NCBI RefSeq assembly: GCF_027942295.1
Contig: NZ_CP101416.1
Coordinates: 3,830,501 to 3,894,500 of the forward strand
Direction: 5' to 3'
Length of the DNA: 64,000 nucleotides
Source of the DNA: Pseudanabaena sp. Chao 1811
GTDB taxonomy: Bacteria > Cyanobacteriota > Cyanobacteriia > Pseudanabaenales > Pseudanabaenaceae
The notes under the pieces were generated by a model. That model had not been told where the DNA came from, made no database searches, and was given only the letters and a program-made list of their open reading frames with translations. How positions within the stretch are numbered: the first letter of the stretch is position 1; every line of letters begins with the position of its first letter. The position numbers and the translations under genes were made by a program. Positions 14,450 to 20,123 of the stretch are shown piece by piece.

Positions 14450-14872
14450 TCAATAATTCCAAGGATTAATAATTGTGATTTGACAATCTAGGAAATCGTC
14501 AACATTGCGAGTTACGATCGCTGCATTATTAGCTAGACATATAGAGGCAATCAAAGCATCAGCTTGAGCTATTGGTTTCCCTTTTTTGCGGCGATCGCTT
14601 GTGATTTGAGCAAAACAGTTTGCTGAGTCTGAGTCAAAAAATAAAATCTGTCCCGCGAAGTCTTCATTAAACATAGCCTGTGCAGATTCTTGTAAAGCTT
14701 TGCTACGTTTACCTTCGGGCATAATAGCGATGCCACCAAGGATCTCGGCTTGGTTAATACTGGTGGTAAATAGGTTTTCTCTAGGCTGGGCAGCAACCCA
14801 AGATTTGACTGTTTGTGAACCTTGGGGCTTCATCAGTTCTGACAGGACGTTGGTATCAAGAACAATTTTCAT
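14450..14872 (-). CDS. VapC/FitB-type PIN-domain toxin
   Basis: A 140-residue PIN-domain ribonuclease, the toxin of a type II toxin-antitoxin pair. The acidic active-site residues are visible: Asp in MKIVLDTNVLSELMKP, Glu in TSINQAEILGGI, and the downstream Asp residues in IAQADALIASICL and VTRNVDDF. The partner antitoxin gene is directly upstream and overlaps by four bases (ATGA). The FitB-like LSELMKP motif suggests the FitAB subgroup. It lies just downstream of atpA in an accessory island. Confidence 0.88.
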   Translation of the reverse strand: MKIVLDTNVLSELMKPQGSQTVKSWVAAQPRENLFTTSINQAEILGGIAIMPEGKRSKALQESAQAMFNEDFAGQILFFDSDSANCFAQITSDRRKKGKPIAQADALIASICLANNAAIVTRNVDDFLDCQITIINPWNY

Positions 14873-15126
14873 AGATCGCCCATGTCAAATGTTGGTAAGG
14901 AACGCATGGGTTCTCTAGGCATTTCGGGAATTTCAAAGTCTCCAAAGTCTGCAAAGCGTCTATTAATGGCAGTGGCGAGGTCAGTATTGCTTGGCTTTTT
15001 GGGCGCTAATACGCTTTTGAGAATTGCCTTAATTTCAAGCTCGATGGTGCGACCATGTTGGGCGGCGCGTTGTTCTAACTGTTGGGCAATGTCTGGTTCT
15101 AGTTGATGAATAGTGATGGTTGACAT
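14869..15126 (-). CDS. FitA/VapB-type antitoxin
   Basis: A protein of 85 residues starting MSTITIHQLEPDIAQQLEQR, a ribbon-helix-helix DNA-binding domain, followed by GRTIELEIKAILKSVLAP. The C-terminal acidic/aromatic tail (FADFGDFEIPEMPREPM) would wrap the PIN toxin. The start at 15126 is chosen because it begins with the conserved TITIHQLEP; an upstream extension to 15183 has no family likeness. It overlaps the toxin gene by four bases and probably represses the shared promoter. Confidence 0.88.
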   Translation of the reverse strand: MSTITIHQLEPDIAQQLEQRAAQHGRTIELEIKAILKSVLAPKKPSNTDLATAINRRFADFGDFEIPEMPREPMRSLPTFDMGDL

Positions 15127-15252
15127 GACGTTGGGGAGTAGTAGCAAGGTGTCACTAAAATTGTAACAATCCATTGCAGCCAAGTAAGCTTGAACTCTCC
15201 ACGCTCGCCTTTATCGTCAAGTAGTTTTTACAGGTAAAGAAAGATTCTGGAG

Positions 15253-15300: not shown

Positions 15301-15396
15301 CTATTCTCCATAATGAGTTCTTGCACGAATCACTAAAATGACCAAATCTTCATTGTAGATTTCATACACAAGACGATCTGTATATCTGCTCCATGC
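15301..15396 (-). pseudogene. C-terminal remnant of a YoeB/Txe-type toxin
   Basis: Reading the minus strand up to a TAG at 15301 gives AWSRYTDRLVYEIYNEDLVI and then LVIRARTHYGE, the conserved C-terminal strand and tail of YoeB/RelE-fold toxins. A TAA lies immediately upstream, and the N-terminal two thirds are missing. The antitoxin gene runs straight into the remnant in another frame, so a deletion has joined the antitoxin 3' end to the toxin 3' end. Confidence 0.75.
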
Positions 15397-15625
15397 TTAC
15401 AGTTTCTCCTTCCAGATATTCTTGTCTTGCTATTTCGATTTGTTGGAGAATGTTAGGAGTTTGCATAATCATCGCGGTTTCCATAAGTGATTCCCATTCT
15501 TCTTGGGCAATCAAAATATAGCTGCGGTTTTCACTAACGATCGCTACGCCTTCAGATTCTTTTGTAGCCCGATCGCATAGTTCATCAAGGTTCTTTTTGG
15601 CATAATCAAAAGTAACTTGATACAT
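15362..15625 (-). CDS. Phd/YefM-type antitoxin, orphaned
   Basis: An 87-residue protein with the YefM/Phd N-terminal fold: MYQVTFDYAKKNLDELCDRA, then VAIVSENRSYILIAQEEWESLMETAMIM. In this family the protein binds DNA and neutralises a YoeB-type toxin. The last residues (after GETVSM) are translated from the edge of the toxin remnant and may not be original. With its toxin truncated it is either decaying or acts as a solitary regulator or anti-addiction factor. Confidence 0.82.
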   Translation of the reverse strand: MYQVTFDYAKKNLDELCDRATKESEGVAIVSENRSYILIAQEEWESLMETAMIMQTPNILQQIEIARQEYLEGETVSMEQIYRSSCV

Positions 15626-15842: not shown

Positions 15843-16160
15843 ATGACTGTTTTAAAATCTTGGGATGAAAAAGTTTATATGCGATCGCTTGTCACTGAAA
15901 TAATTAATGGCGAATCCTATAGCTACTATCCACTAGGGCAGTATGTTGTTCGGGCTATGGGGGTTTGTGGCGATCGCCCAACTTTTAAGTACACTCGGAT
16001 TGAGATTGCGGGTGTGATGGAGCGATTAGCTAAGGGAGAAAATGTTGAAAGTATCGTGCTTGGTTTTCGGGGAAGGGTTTCGCGTGAGGCGATCGCTGAG
16101 GCGATTCAAGTTGTGACAACTCATTTTCTTGAGAGTCTTCCTATTTTGAGTGCAGCATGA
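15843..16160 (+). CDS. DUF433 protein, putative antitoxin
   Basis: A 105-residue protein with the DUF433 core GDRPTFKYTRIEIAGVMERL, then GENVESIVLGFRGRVSREAIAEAI, a small helix-turn-helix-like domain. DUF433 genes typically precede a PIN-like DUF5615 gene and are regarded as antitoxins. Here the stop overlaps the next start by four bases (ATGA), supporting translational coupling. The extra N-terminal segment before the core is longer than in many relatives. It is on the plus strand, opposite to the neighbouring modules. Confidence 0.75.
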   Translation: MTVLKSWDEKVYMRSLVTEIINGESYSYYPLGQYVVRAMGVCGDRPTFKYTRIEIAGVMERLAKGENVESIVLGFRGRVSREAIAEAIQVVTTHFLESLPILSAA

Positions 16161-16567
16161 TTGTCCTTGACGAACAGCTTTTAGGAGCGAATCTGGAACA
16201 GGCGATCGGCAAGTGGTATCAGGGTAATGTTTGCTTTATTACGGACTTGCGACCTAATTCGATTATTAAAGATGAAGCGATTCCTATGTTGTTGCGAAAA
16301 GAAGCGCAACCCACTTTTATCACGATAAATGAGCGAGATTTTTGGCGAAAAGTGGCAGTAAGTGAATATTTTTGTATAGTCTGTTTTAATTTGCCAGATT
16401 CGCGTGCTTCCGAAATCTCTTTTCTACTCAGAAATCTCTTCCGTCACTCTGAATTTAATGTAAAAGCAAAGCGGATAGGAAAGGTGGTGAGGATTGCGGA
16501 TAGTAGTGTTAGCTATTATTCTACTAGCAATAGAGAAATACAAGAATTTACTTTACAGATTCAGTAA
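16157..16567 (+). CDS. DUF5615-like PIN-superfamily toxin candidate
   Basis: A 136-residue protein beginning MIVLDEQLLGANLEQAIGKW, with an early acidic residue as in PIN-like Mut7-C/DUF5615 proteins, then DLRPNSIIKDEAIPMLLRKE and FITINERDFWRKV, which carry further acidic residues in PIN-like order. It is coupled to the DUF433 gene. Role as an RNA-cleaving toxin is inferred from the pairing and fold type. Confidence 0.68.
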   Translation: MIVLDEQLLGANLEQAIGKWYQGNVCFITDLRPNSIIKDEAIPMLLRKEAQPTFITINERDFWRKVAVSEYFCIVCFNLPDSRASEISFLLRNLFRHSEFNVKAKRIGKVVRIADSSVSYYSTSNREIQEFTLQIQ

Positions 16568-16648: not shown

Positions 16649-16993
16649 TTAGGCGATCGCATAGCCTGATACTTGACGAATATAAACGGGCTGAAAACCG
16701 ATGACGATATCTTCTTTGGGTACACCTTTCTCGACGAGGGATTGACCAATATCGAGTTCGGTATTGTTGATTTGAATCCAAATTTTGCCATTTTTAATAT
16801 CTAAGTGCATGGAAACACCATAAACTCGTGTTTTTTGATCCCATCCCACACCTAATACTTGATAGTGATCGTGTTCTGTATCCGATAGAAACTGCATCTC
16901 GATCTCACCATGAGAGGGTTTGTAGGAGGCATAGTGTCCCAAAATCTCTTTGATAATGGTGCGATACTTGGCGAGTTTTTCTAGATTTTCCAT
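16649..16993 (-). CDS. xisI: XisI family protein
   Basis: A 114-residue member of the XisI family, named for a factor controlling excision of the fdxN element in heterocystous cyanobacteria but widespread outside that setting. Family signatures: LEKLAKYRTIIKEILGHYAS, HYQVLGVGWDQKTRVYG, IWIQINNTELDIG and VPKEDIVIGFQPVYIR. XisI normally follows and overlaps xisH; here only the tail of xisH survives upstream. Its biochemical role is not known; a fold related to nuclease-inhibitor pairs has been suggested for XisH/XisI. Its start overlaps the xisH stop by 13 bases. Confidence 0.9.
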   Translation of the reverse strand: MENLEKLAKYRTIIKEILGHYASYKPSHGEIEMQFLSDTEHDHYQVLGVGWDQKTRVYGVSMHLDIKNGKIWIQINNTELDIGQSLVEKGVPKEDIVIGFQPVYIRQVSGYAIA

Positions 16994-17133
16994 GTGATAA
17001 TTACCTCGTTTTCGATATCGTAAACAAAGATTTCCAATTTATATTCAGCAATAACCATATATGCAAACTCTTTTTGGAAAAAGCTTGCATACGCAGTATT
17101 GGGAACTGCTAAAAATAGTTTGCGTTTTTCCTT
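16981..17133 (-). pseudogene. xisH: C-terminal remnant of xisH
   Basis: On the minus strand, an open frame ending at a TAG that overlaps xisI reads KEKRKLFLAVPNTAYASFFQ, then KEFAYMVIAEYKLEIFVYDI and ENEVIITWKI. This matches the XisH C-terminus (LAVP...FF...YDxExEVIxxW). A TAA lies directly upstream and nothing XisH-like precedes it, so about two thirds of the gene, including its putative endonuclease-fold core, is lost. Confidence 0.75.
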
Positions 17134-17175
17134 TTAACTTTTTCCTTTTTAGAAACCATTTAAGAATTGTAATCT

Positions 17176-17249
17176 TAGCCCCCCTAGCCCCCCAATTCTG
17201 GGGGGAACCAGATTCAAGTCCCCCAGAATTGGGGGATTTAGGGGGGCTA
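17176..17249. repeat. C/G-tract palindromic repeat
   Basis: The left half (TAGCCCCCCTAGCCCCCCAA) and the right half (TTGGGGGATTTAGGGGGGCT) are inverted copies, a MITE-like palindrome of a type common in cyanobacteria. It lies about 40 bases upstream of the xisH break and just beyond the 3' end of the STAND gene, and may mark the rearrangement that truncated xisH. Confidence 0.75.
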
Positions 17250-17315
17250 TTGGTAGACTTTTAAACGAAATTTCATATGTCATGTAATTCTTAAATAGTT
17301 TCTTGGAGATCTGGG

Positions 17316-19613
17316 TCATTGCTGGAATAATCGCATTAATGCATCAGGATTATTTTGAATCATCTCTACTAAGGCGGTAGCATCTAAACCCGTAATTGCT
17401 TGCAGTTTCAGCAGCATCAATGCACTCATTACACTTTGAGTATAGGGATGATTTTCGCCAACGGTTGCCATCAAAATTGCTAACGCTTCTTGATACAGCG
17501 GTTCCGCTTCTTCATATCTCCCTTGCGATTTGTACAGCCCTGCGAGGTTGTTGAGACTGGATGCGACATCGGGATGGCGATCGCCTAACAGTTCTCGCAT
17601 CAACTGCATCGCTTCTTGATACAGCGGTTCCGCTTCTTCATATCTCCCTTGCGATTTGTACAGCGCTGCGAGGTTGTTGAGACTGGATGCGACATCGGGA
17701 TGGCGATCGCCTAACAGTTCTCGCATCAACTGCATCGCCTCTTGATACAGCGGTTCCGCTTCTTCATATCTACCTTGCGATTGGTACAGCGCTGCGAGGT
17801 TGTTGAGACTGGATGCGACATAGGGATGGCGATCGCCTAACAGTTCTCGCATCAACTGCATCGCCTCTTGATACAGCGGTTCCGCTTCTTCATATCTACC
17901 TTGCGATTTGTACAGCGCTGCGAGGTTGTTGAGACTGGATGCGACATAGGGATGGCGATCGCCTAACAGTTCTCGCATCAACTGCATCGCTTCTTGATAC
18001 AGCGGTTCCGCTTCTTCATATCTACCTTGCGATTTGTACAGCGCTGCGAGGTTGTTGAGACTGGATGCGACATAGGGATGGCGATCGCCTAACAGTTCTC
18101 GCATCAACTGCATCGCTTCTTGATACAGCGGTTCCGCTTCTTCATATCTACCTTGCGATTTGTACAGCGCTGCGAGGTTGTTGAGACTGGATGCGACATA
18201 GGGATGGCGATCGCCTAACAGTTCTCGCCACAACTGCATCGCTTCTTGATATAGCGGTTCCGCTTCTTCATATCTCCCTTGCGATTCGTACAGCGCTGCG
18301 AGGTTGTTGAGACTGGATGCGACATCGGGATGGCGATCGCCTAACAGTTCTTGCGTAGCTTTCAAACATCTTAAATGCGAATCTTCTGCCAGTGTGTAGA
18401 TTCCTTGTCCGTAATAAAACCTTCCAACCCCTCCAAATGCCCAATACAAATTGTTATCTTCTTCAGGATTGAGAATATCACCTAGCATTTCGCGGCTCAG
18501 CATATCCAAATGGGGAATCGCAGGGGCTACTTCTGCAATCAAATCTCGCGTTGGTGATTGGGGAATTTGTTTTGCTATAGCGAGCAAACTGTTTATAAAT
18601 GCTTGACGAAACTGATGATTTTCTTCAGCTTTTAATAGCTTGGCTCCGAAGAACTCACGGACTAGCGTATGAATTTTATAAAAGTTGCATTCTTCATCAA
18701 CTGGTTGAATCAAATGCAAACTGTCTAACTGCCCCCTTGCCTCATTGAGTTCTGCTTCTGTAATTTCGGCACTTGCCCCAATCTCAGCCACCAACTCCCA
18801 CAAAATCTCAACAGGTGCAAACAGTCCTAACAGCATCGCCACTCTCTGAGAACCAGCACTAATGTCATCCCAACTCAGTTGGATTGCTGCCTCTACACCA
18901 CGATAGCCATAGGACTTATAAGCGCTGCGATCTTTTGCAAGCGATGCATCCGCTAGATTTAACCTTTCGGTTAACTTCGCAAAGGTCAAATGGCGATTTT
19001 TAACCAGATATTCGCCCATCAACTCGATCGCCAAAGGCAAATAACCCAACTTTTTACATAGTTCCGCAACTACACGATTTTCCTTTTTAACCTTAGCAAG
19101 ACCCACAAACTTGATAAACAAAGTTATCGCTTTGCCTTGGGTTAGCACCTTCAATAACAATTGCTTAAAATCTGACCTCAGCGATCTTTCCCGCGTCGTT
19201 ACCAACACCTTTACCCTCGGAGCGATCGGCATCGCCAGATCAGGAATGCTCTCCGCCTTTGGCACATCATCGAGAATCACCAATAACTTGCCAGACTCAG
19301 GCAACCAGTTTTGCCAATACCATGCCGCCTGTTCATCCAGACTAGCCGACTGCATCGCTTCGGGTAAGTCCAGATAAGGACTAGCCATAGTCACCACAGC
19401 CTGAGCCAATCCCATCTCCCGCAAAGACAACCAATACCGCGCCACATATTCCTGTTGATAGCGAGTCGCATATTGCAGCGCTAGTTCAGTCTTACCGACA
19501 CCACCCATCCCCTCCACTGCACAGACGATTACACCCTGACCTTCTTGCAACTTTGCATGAATTTCCGCAAGCTCATCCTCTCGCCCCACAAAGTTAGGCG
19601 AACCATGCCGCAC
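17316..19613 (-). CDS. STAND NTPase (NB-ARC type) with TPR array
   Basis: A 765-residue protein of the STAND class, signalling ATPases that oligomerise on ligand binding. The N-terminus has SPNFVGREDELAEIHAKLQE, the P-loop GMGGVGKTELALQYA near residue 35 and Walker B KLLVILDDVPKAE, then a winged-helix region. The C-terminal third has seven 42-residue TPRs of the kinesin-light-chain type (HPxVASSLNNLAALYxSQGR). Translation is taken from a GTG at 19613. The frame stays open for 21 codons further upstream to a TGA that is the stop codon of the next gene, so both genes share one frame and may once have been a single protein. The role could be defence or regulation; no effector domain is attached. 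Confidence 0.85.
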   Translation of the reverse strand: MRHGSPNFVGREDELAEIHAKLQEGQGVIVCAVEGMGGVGKTELALQYATRYQQEYVARYWLSLREMGLAQAVVTMASPYLDLPEAMQSASLDEQAAWYWQNWLPESGKLLVILDDVPKAESIPDLAMPIAPRVKVLVTTRERSLRSDFKQLLLKVLTQGKAITLFIKFVGLAKVKKENRVVAELCKKLGYLPLAIELMGEYLVKNRHLTFAKLTERLNLADASLAKDRSAYKSYGYRGVEAAIQLSWDDISAGSQRVAMLLGLFAPVEILWELVAEIGASAEITEAELNEARGQLDSLHLIQPVDEECNFYKIHTLVREFFGAKLLKAEENHQFRQAFINSLLAIAKQIPQSPTRDLIAEVAPAIPHLDMLSREMLGDILNPEEDNNLYWAFGGVGRFYYGQGIYTLAEDSHLRCLKATQELLGDRHPDVASSLNNLAALYESQGRYEEAEPLYQEAMQLWRELLGDRHPYVASSLNNLAALYKSQGRYEEAEPLYQEAMQLMRELLGDRHPYVASSLNNLAALYKSQGRYEEAEPLYQEAMQLMRELLGDRHPYVASSLNNLAALYKSQGRYEEAEPLYQEAMQLMRELLGDRHPYVASSLNNLAALYQSQGRYEEAEPLYQEAMQLMRELLGDRHPDVASSLNNLAALYKSQGRYEEAEPLYQEAMQLMRELLGDRHPDVASSLNNLAGLYKSQGRYEEAEPLYQEALAILMATVGENHPYTQSVMSALMLLKLQAITGLDATALVEMIQNNPDALMRLFQQ
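17480..18345 (-). repeat. Seven near-identical 126-bp coding repeats
   Basis: Each unit encodes one TPR and contains GATGGCGATCGCCTAACAGT (plus-strand text). Units differ only at a few codons (Tyr or Asp after HP; Glu, Lys or Gln before SQGR), which indicates recent tandem expansion or gene conversion. Confidence 0.92.
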
Positions 19614-19676: not shown

Positions 19677-20123
19677 TCAATCATCATCACTTGTCCCAAA
19701 ATACATTTTTTCGGCAATGTATTGCTTTCCACCCTGCTCAGCCTTAGCCTGAACATTCATGTTGTTATCACCCGTGACATTCTGCACCATATTGCTATTG
19801 TCTTGCAGTTTGCCAGCTTGAATTTCTTTGGCTAGCACTTTCAACTGTTCGGCAAACTCTGGCTCATCATCTAGCACCACATCTAGATTTTTGGCAATAG
19901 TTGATATGGCAGTGCGATCGCCCTGCTCGGCTTTTGCCAATGCCTCATCCACCTTTGCCGACCTGCCACGCAGCTTATTCCAGATCGCTTGACGCAACTC
20001 ATCCATCTTCGCGATCGCCTCAGCAGTGAACTTCTTTGCCAATTCACCAGCACCCGACTCGATAAACTTCTGAAAAGCCAAATTTGCGATCGCCCCAGCC
20101 GTCAACGTTAAAGGATCTGCCAT
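19677..20123 (-). CDS. N-terminal module of the STAND protein, now separate
   Basis: A 148-residue, mostly helical protein: MADPLTLTAGAIANLAFQKF, GAGELAKKFTAEAIAKMDEL and VLDDEPEFAEQLKVLAKEIQ, then an Asn/Gln-rich linker NSNMVQNVTGDNNMNVQAKA. Such modules are found fused N-terminally to NB-ARC or NACHT proteins in cyanobacteria. It ends ...TSDDD at a TGA, and the same frame continues into the NB-ARC gene. It may be a broken fusion, or a free adaptor translated separately. A shorter analogue stands alone at 61848-62243. Confidence 0.65.
   Translation of the reverse strand: MADPLTLTAGAIANLAFQKFIESGAGELAKKFTAEAIAKMDELRQAIWNKLRGRSAKVDEALAKAEQGDRTAISTIAKNLDVVLDDEPEFAEQLKVLAKEIQAGKLQDNSNMVQNVTGDNNMNVQAKAEQGGKQYIAEKMYFGTSDDD

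Follow-up and report, generated by a model that had tools for sequence, protein, structure and literature searches.

The closest described relatives of the genes considered here are xisH and xisI of the Anabaena fdxN element (PF08814 and PF08869), which have the same families, gene order and overlap as the pair analysed below. Papers that cite the original work state that both genes are required for excision of the element, and they relay the view of Hwang et al. (2014) that XisH is likely an endonuclease and XisI likely a directionality factor. Structures have been solved in both families (2inb and 2okf for XisH; 3d7q, 2nlv, 2nwv and 2nvm for XisI). The literature further mentions four xisH and seven xisI genes in one Thiomargarita genome, putative LexA sites at a Lyngbya xisH promoter, and XisH and XisI among the domains of predicted eCIS-associated toxins in Moorena; one paper remarks that their function in species lacking heterocysts is still to be disclosed. 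A toxin-antitoxin proposal for XisH/XisI was not found in the searched literature, which covers few subscription journals and in which the sole mention of an antitoxin together with XisI belongs to a reference list.

Here we consider a window of 64,000 nucleotides from Pseudanabaena sp. Chao 1811 (NZ_CP101416.1, positions 3,830,501 to 3,894,500), in which an xisI gene has kept its full length next to a fragment of xisH.

A deletion has removed the core of xisH in the window

The locus comprises the following features, numbered from the first base of the window.

16649-16993, minus strand: xisI, intact, 114 aa (Pfam XisI 8.3e-43, profile positions 2-110 of 110)
16981-17124, minus strand: xisH remnant, codons 91-137 plus stop, original start codon deleted (Pfam and DNA comparison with L023 and L024)
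17004-17007, minus strand: GAGG, possible xisI ribosome-binding site within the xisH remnant, 10 bases before the ATG (judged from sequence)
17124/17125, minus strand: deletion junction, at which the leader is joined to xisH codon 91 (comparison with G306 and G187)
17125-17145, minus strand: surviving xisH leader GGAAAAAGTTAAAAGGAAAAA, the same leader as ahead of intact xisH in L023 and L024

The original prediction that about 50 residues of XisH remain and overlap an intact xisI is borne out. An open frame of 50 codons (16981-17133, minus strand) matches Pfam XisH at 8.1e-10 and 39.4 bits (cut-off 25) over profile positions 90-134 of 134 alone, and its stop lies inside xisI, giving an overlap of 13 bases (16981-16993). 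The xisI product reaches 145.7 bits against a curated XisI cut-off of 25 and is thus a full-length family member. Its orthologues in three congeners are 97%, 95% and 92% identical, the closest being that of G306, which adjoins an intact xisH; this XisH is in turn 98% identical to XisH of Pseudanabaena sp. lw0831. An intact xisH precedes the same xisI in both G306 (L023) and G187 (L024), and in G293 the xisH ahead of it is frameshifted at almost the same codon as the break in the window. DNA comparison with both G306 and G187 shows that exactly 274 bp of xisH are missing in the window, namely the start codon and residues 1-90, including the D/E/ExK motif (D38, E48, E57 and K59).

What has been lost can be gauged from a model of the G306 protein. 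It superimposes on solved XisH (2okf; Z 23.6, rmsd 1.0, 128 residues aligned) and also on EndoMS (5gkj; Z 9.2, rmsd 2.8, 105 aligned), Can2 (7bdv; Z 8.8, rmsd 3.1, 118 aligned) and Card1. Mean pLDDT is 57 over residues 31-40, and the four motif residues are invariant in 16 of 16 aligned XisH sequences. As modelled, intact XisH is thereby shown to have the fold and motif of PD-(D/E)XK nucleases. For XisI, clear matches are confined to solved XisI structures: no fold outside its own family reached Z 5, and the weak match to 1ew4 (Z 4.7, rmsd 3.6, 76 aligned) was set aside. Pfam reports the XisI domain only and no DNA-binding domain, unlike typical type II antitoxins, and the PADLOC defence models match neither XisH nor XisI.

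A promoter scan limited to consensus matches found no promoter-like site upstream of the window xisI on its strand; on the same criterion, a terminator-like hairpin lies within the xisH remnant (17092-17059). The window xisI branch shows 4 nonsynonymous and 8 synonymous substitutions and the G306 branch 0 and 2, respectively, which is consistent with purifying selection, the periods before and after the deletion being inseparable. The window locus is a decayed xisHI pair and as such ordinary for its family; the result of interest is the family-wide one-sidedness of this decay, described below.

Eleven places in the same genome match XisI, and XisH is found at nine of them: six full-length, one split and two reduced to C-terminal remnants, the window among the latter. 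One of the two XisI copies without XisH has an internal stop, and no XisH match without XisI was present in this genome.

The flanking repeat and neighbouring genes

Upstream of the xisH leader lie two nested repeats.

17151-17303: 153-bp stretch enclosing the GC palindrome, bounded by an 18-base inverted repeat
17176-17249: GC-tract palindrome, belonging to a repeat family dispersed over the genome (11 matches)

The palindrome arms (17176-17206 and 17219-17249) are 74% complementary and the outer repeats (17151-17168 and 17286-17303) 94% complementary over 18 bases. The repeat is not a product of chance, since a 26-base arm of the palindrome has 11 genome matches with at most 3 mismatches, as against 0 for the same pattern read backwards. 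Among the loci of these 11 matches, the outer ends occur at the window copy only. Two other copies (L057 and L062; G000:C1:4374373 and 4717168) are enclosed by another outer inverted repeat, as though several small elements carried the GC palindrome. The palindrome had been placed about 40 bases from the break, which is roughly right. Some 50 bases separate the junction from the nearest arm and some 26 separate it from the outer repeat; the break itself lies outside the repeat. The element is absent from the stretches upstream of xisH that were compared in L023 and L024. We find no support for the palindrome as the cause of the break: the leader survives unbroken between the repeat and the junction, and the flanks of the core differ at its other copies.

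The original description of the setting as a toxin-antitoxin array is a fair one, given the following genes nearby.

14450-15183, minus strand: toxin-antitoxin pair, a FitA-like antitoxin (14869-15183) and a PIN-domain protein (14450-14872) (Pfam)
15362-15625, minus strand: Phd/YefM-type antitoxin, apparently toxin-less (Pfam PhdYeFM_antitox 1.4e-8; flanks from the open reading frame list only)
15843-16567, plus strand: DUF433 protein (15843-16160; Pfam DUF433 4.2e-6) and its 136-aa partner (16157-16567)

The Phd/YefM-type gene is a second apparently lone antitoxin of the array. The 136-aa partner of DUF433 has no Pfam match and may be a divergent DUF5615-like protein; in G313 and G304, DUF433 matches recur that agree with the window copy in positions and frame length. 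On the other side of xisI, an NB-ARC ATPase with about seven near-identical TPR units (17316-19613, minus strand) is preceded by a 148-aa protein (19677-20123, minus strand), and TPR-like coding DNA is found upstream of xisH in L023 and L024 as well.

Intact xisH is not found without xisI

The survey covered 31 cyanobacterial genomes from 21 genera, chosen by the presence of XisI (G000, 26 XisI-bearing genomes of at most 10 contigs, and 4 congeners), and genes were scored as intact by coverage, absence of a stop and an open frame. Among 240 XisI and 201 XisH matches, XisH and XisI lie at most 150 bp apart at paired loci, so that the pairs are small adjacent or overlapping genes, as in type II toxin-antitoxin systems. 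Intact xisI genes number 211, with an intact xisH beside 130, a broken one beside 39 and none beside 42; 81 of them are thus without an intact xisH. Conversely, 131 xisH genes were counted as intact and an intact xisI stands beside 130. The remaining candidate (L204 in G062) has an xisH frameshifted after profile position 113 and an xisI that stops after position 104 of 110, and both genes may be damaged or both still working. Since this exception is not an xisH without xisI, the lone counts are 81 and 0. The 14 XisH fragments without a downstream XisI include no intact gene, and of 29 broken XisI matches 25 have no XisH beside them, 3 a broken one and 1 the apparently intact one.

Lone xisI occurs in 20 of the 21 genera. 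Under a null expectation set by gene length (134/244), the binomial probability is 8e-22 by locus and 6e-6 with each genus taken once, where the loci are not independent events and five congener genomes supply 25 of the 81 lone xisI. Sequencing errors could mimic stops and frameshifts, though in both genes alike. The survey of solitary xisI against solitary xisH had been asked for in advance, and its outcome is as predicted: the finding that would have spoken against the idea, namely xisH alone being as common as xisI alone, did not materialize, as a lone intact xisH is present in none of the samples.

Because the 31 genomes had been picked by XisI presence, we added sets seeded by XisH and a tally of XisH in 291 genomes. 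Among the best 80 of at least 555 relatives on genome contigs, retrieved with search patterns that require the N-terminal part of XisH, 73 loci have a full XisH, 6 a broken XisH with a full XisI and 1 both genes broken; a full-length XisI lies beside every one of the 73. Both full XisH genes on viral contigs are likewise paired with a full-length XisI match. On plasmids, each of the 38 records with an XisH match (43 XisH places, each record being represented by its best one, and some XisH matches being partial) carries XisI as well, as judged by annotation or tblastn, XisI records numbering 46; 21 of the 38 plasmids are predicted to be conjugative or mobilizable. In the 291 sampled genomes, for which up to 15 XisI and 13 XisH candidates per genome were scored and genome tallies alone were used, XisI is present in 84 and XisH above cut-off in 79 among the matches listed; all 79 also have XisI, 5 have XisI only, and 3 further XisH matches fall below cut-off. 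A search for XisI relatives returned none from viral contigs or phages and one for XisH none from phages, which together with the pairing of both viral XisH genes rules against phage-borne lone XisI as a counter-defence.

Two loci depart from the usual arrangement. Directly upstream of xisI in L102, the XisH core has been removed and the N- and C-terminal ends are fused in one short open frame. In L222:354-1730, an open frame of 459 aa has XisH at its C terminus, and downstream of it come xisI and another xisHI pair.

Lone xisI genes and their upstream regions

Upstream frames were read at 41 of the 42 XisH-less xisI loci. A fixed replacement partner for XisH was considered and dismissed, as no single partner is found at most of the 41; three of the loci (L005, L074 and L098) have a MazF-like gene that Pfam confirms. 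Short XisH stubs are detectable at 11 of the 41 (tblastn, E <0.05, a loose limit), so several of these loci are probably more deeply eroded pairs. Within contigs of 51-226 kb from G313 and G295 (L098, L100 and L101), a conserved mazF-xisI arrangement has a MazF-like gene in the place of xisH, of which only the last bases remain before xisI begins. At L068 and on plasmid CP150887.1 (H48), the lone xisI overlaps the end of a gene annotated as N-6 DNA methylase.

Median dN/dS is 0.086 for lone xisI (48 pairs) and 0.093 for paired xisI (153 pairs), the values of most lone pairs reaching back to before the loss of xisH. Two groups share their upstream DNA, at 95-97% over 400 bp in L098/L100/L101 (dN/dS 0.046-0.103) and at 80.6% in L083/L084 (dN/dS 0.068), and loss of xisH therefore predates their divergence. 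Judging by these substitution rates, the lone XisI of both groups are maintained by purifying selection. Since xisI decays after xisH has been lost (28 broken xisI lack an intact xisH), many other lone xisI may be relics.

Alternative explanations

How might such one-sided survival arise? The reading that we favour, at a probability of about 0.75, is that xisHI acts like a toxin-antitoxin pair in which the nuclease XisH is costly unless XisI restrains it, the window holding a leftover antidote. The alternatives can be weighed against copy numbers, lesion patterns and gene order.

XisI might instead act in its own right as a directionality factor and XisH as its nuclease helper, as in the fdxN element, with xisI serving other recombinases where xisH is gone. 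The reported need for both genes in fdxN excision and the view attributed to Hwang et al. (2014), both known through citing papers, are in keeping with this idea. It leaves unexplained, however, why intact xisH is absent without xisI, and it sits poorly with up to 22 XisI matches per genome, some of them on plasmids, and with G070, which keeps an intact lone xisI and in which no XisH match was found. We consider it improbable.

Slightly less probable still is mere dependence, whereby XisH is unable to work or fold without XisI, XisI is independently useful, and xisH decays without any toxicity once xisI has been lost. Few intact lone xisH are expected on this account too, but it also predicts a lag, during which an intact xisH would stand beside a freshly broken xisI. 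XisH remains lie within 450 bp of 40 lone XisI and carry stops, frameshifts, deletions and insertions. In 20 cases they still cover at least 115 of 134 profile positions; these represent 19 distinct xisH genes, one case being a tandem second XisI behind the same xisH. In eight of these little-eroded xisH, one in-frame stop is the sole interruption of the match; others have several lesions, so not all are young. The converse of these 20 cases, a little-eroded lesion in xisI beside an intact xisH, was seen 0 times in the samples. The little-eroded lesions thus speak for a cost of free XisH over mere dependence on XisI.

Gene order was addressed with a control pair in five genomes of the window's genus, DUF433 and DUF5615, which we take to be antitoxin-like and toxin-like, respectively. 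The pair shows the same one-sided survival as xisHI and differs from it in belonging to other Pfam families and in that the antitoxin-like gene comes first and the toxin-like gene second. Next to 61 intact pairs, 71 intact DUF433 genes lack an intact DUF5615 (58 have none and 13 a broken one), an upper bound given that DUF433 might pair with other genes as well; what counts is the single intact DUF5615 without DUF433. Survival hence follows role and not position, because here it is the first gene that survives. Neutral decay with a positional bias, in which upstream deletions strike the first gene and spare the second, would account for the many upstream truncations that leave the C-terminal end of xisH, but it is most unlikely and already disfavoured by this control and by in-frame stops and frameshifts that are just as one-sided.

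Discussion

The original prediction cast XisI as the inhibitor or immunity partner of a toxin-like XisH. At the level of sequence this is supported: our samples contain many lone xisI and no lone intact xisH. We infer toxicity and nuclease activity of XisH, direct inhibition by XisI, and protection in trans by lone XisI. We envision that XisH, a small protein with a PD-(D/E)XK nuclease fold, would be harmful to its host when free, and that XisI, made from the overlapping downstream gene, would restrain it. A cell would then be free to lose XisH and unable to lose XisI first. In the window, the 274-bp deletion eliminated the beginning of xisH together with its catalytic core and spared its leader and last 47 codons; because these codons hold the possible ribosome-binding site of xisI, the latter could survive as a lone antidote, and its product may still protect in trans.

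A broader scenario, offered tentatively and at somewhat less than even odds, is that the XisHI family is a mobile cyanobacterial addiction module of nuclease and antidote, carried on plasmids and beside toxin-antitoxin genes, and that one element later put it to use in fdxN excision. Lone XisI, among them those joined behind mazF-like genes, would then be retained as a safeguard against XisHI modules that are encoded at other loci of the cell or enter it on plasmids.

XisH and XisI abound in cyanobacterial genomes and bear the annotation of excision factors also in species that lack heterocysts. If they are nuclease and antidote, many annotations change their meaning, and a PD-(D/E)XK family is added to the known toxin-antidote pairs. 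The role of xisHI outside the fdxN element, an old question, would then reduce to a simple expression test.

Compared with the Anabaena fdxN-element pair, the window locus differs in the deletion of xisH, and the survey points to a relation of toxin and antidote rather than to an excision helper. Among type II toxin-antitoxin systems, those of the HigBA kind have a reversed gene order. Like them, xisHI consists of small overlapping genes with the toxin-like member first, frequently leaves lone antidotes, and is found beside toxin-antitoxin genes and on plasmids; unlike them, it combines a toxin-like member of PD-(D/E)XK fold with an antidote that has no recognised DNA-binding domain. DNase colicins are nuclease/immunity pairs, in which a small dedicated protein restrains the nuclease. 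XisH, with 137 residues, differs from these colicins in having no room for a domain beyond its Pfam match, and by analogy the xisHI pair would resemble them in joining a fold of the DNA-nuclease type to a small dedicated partner.
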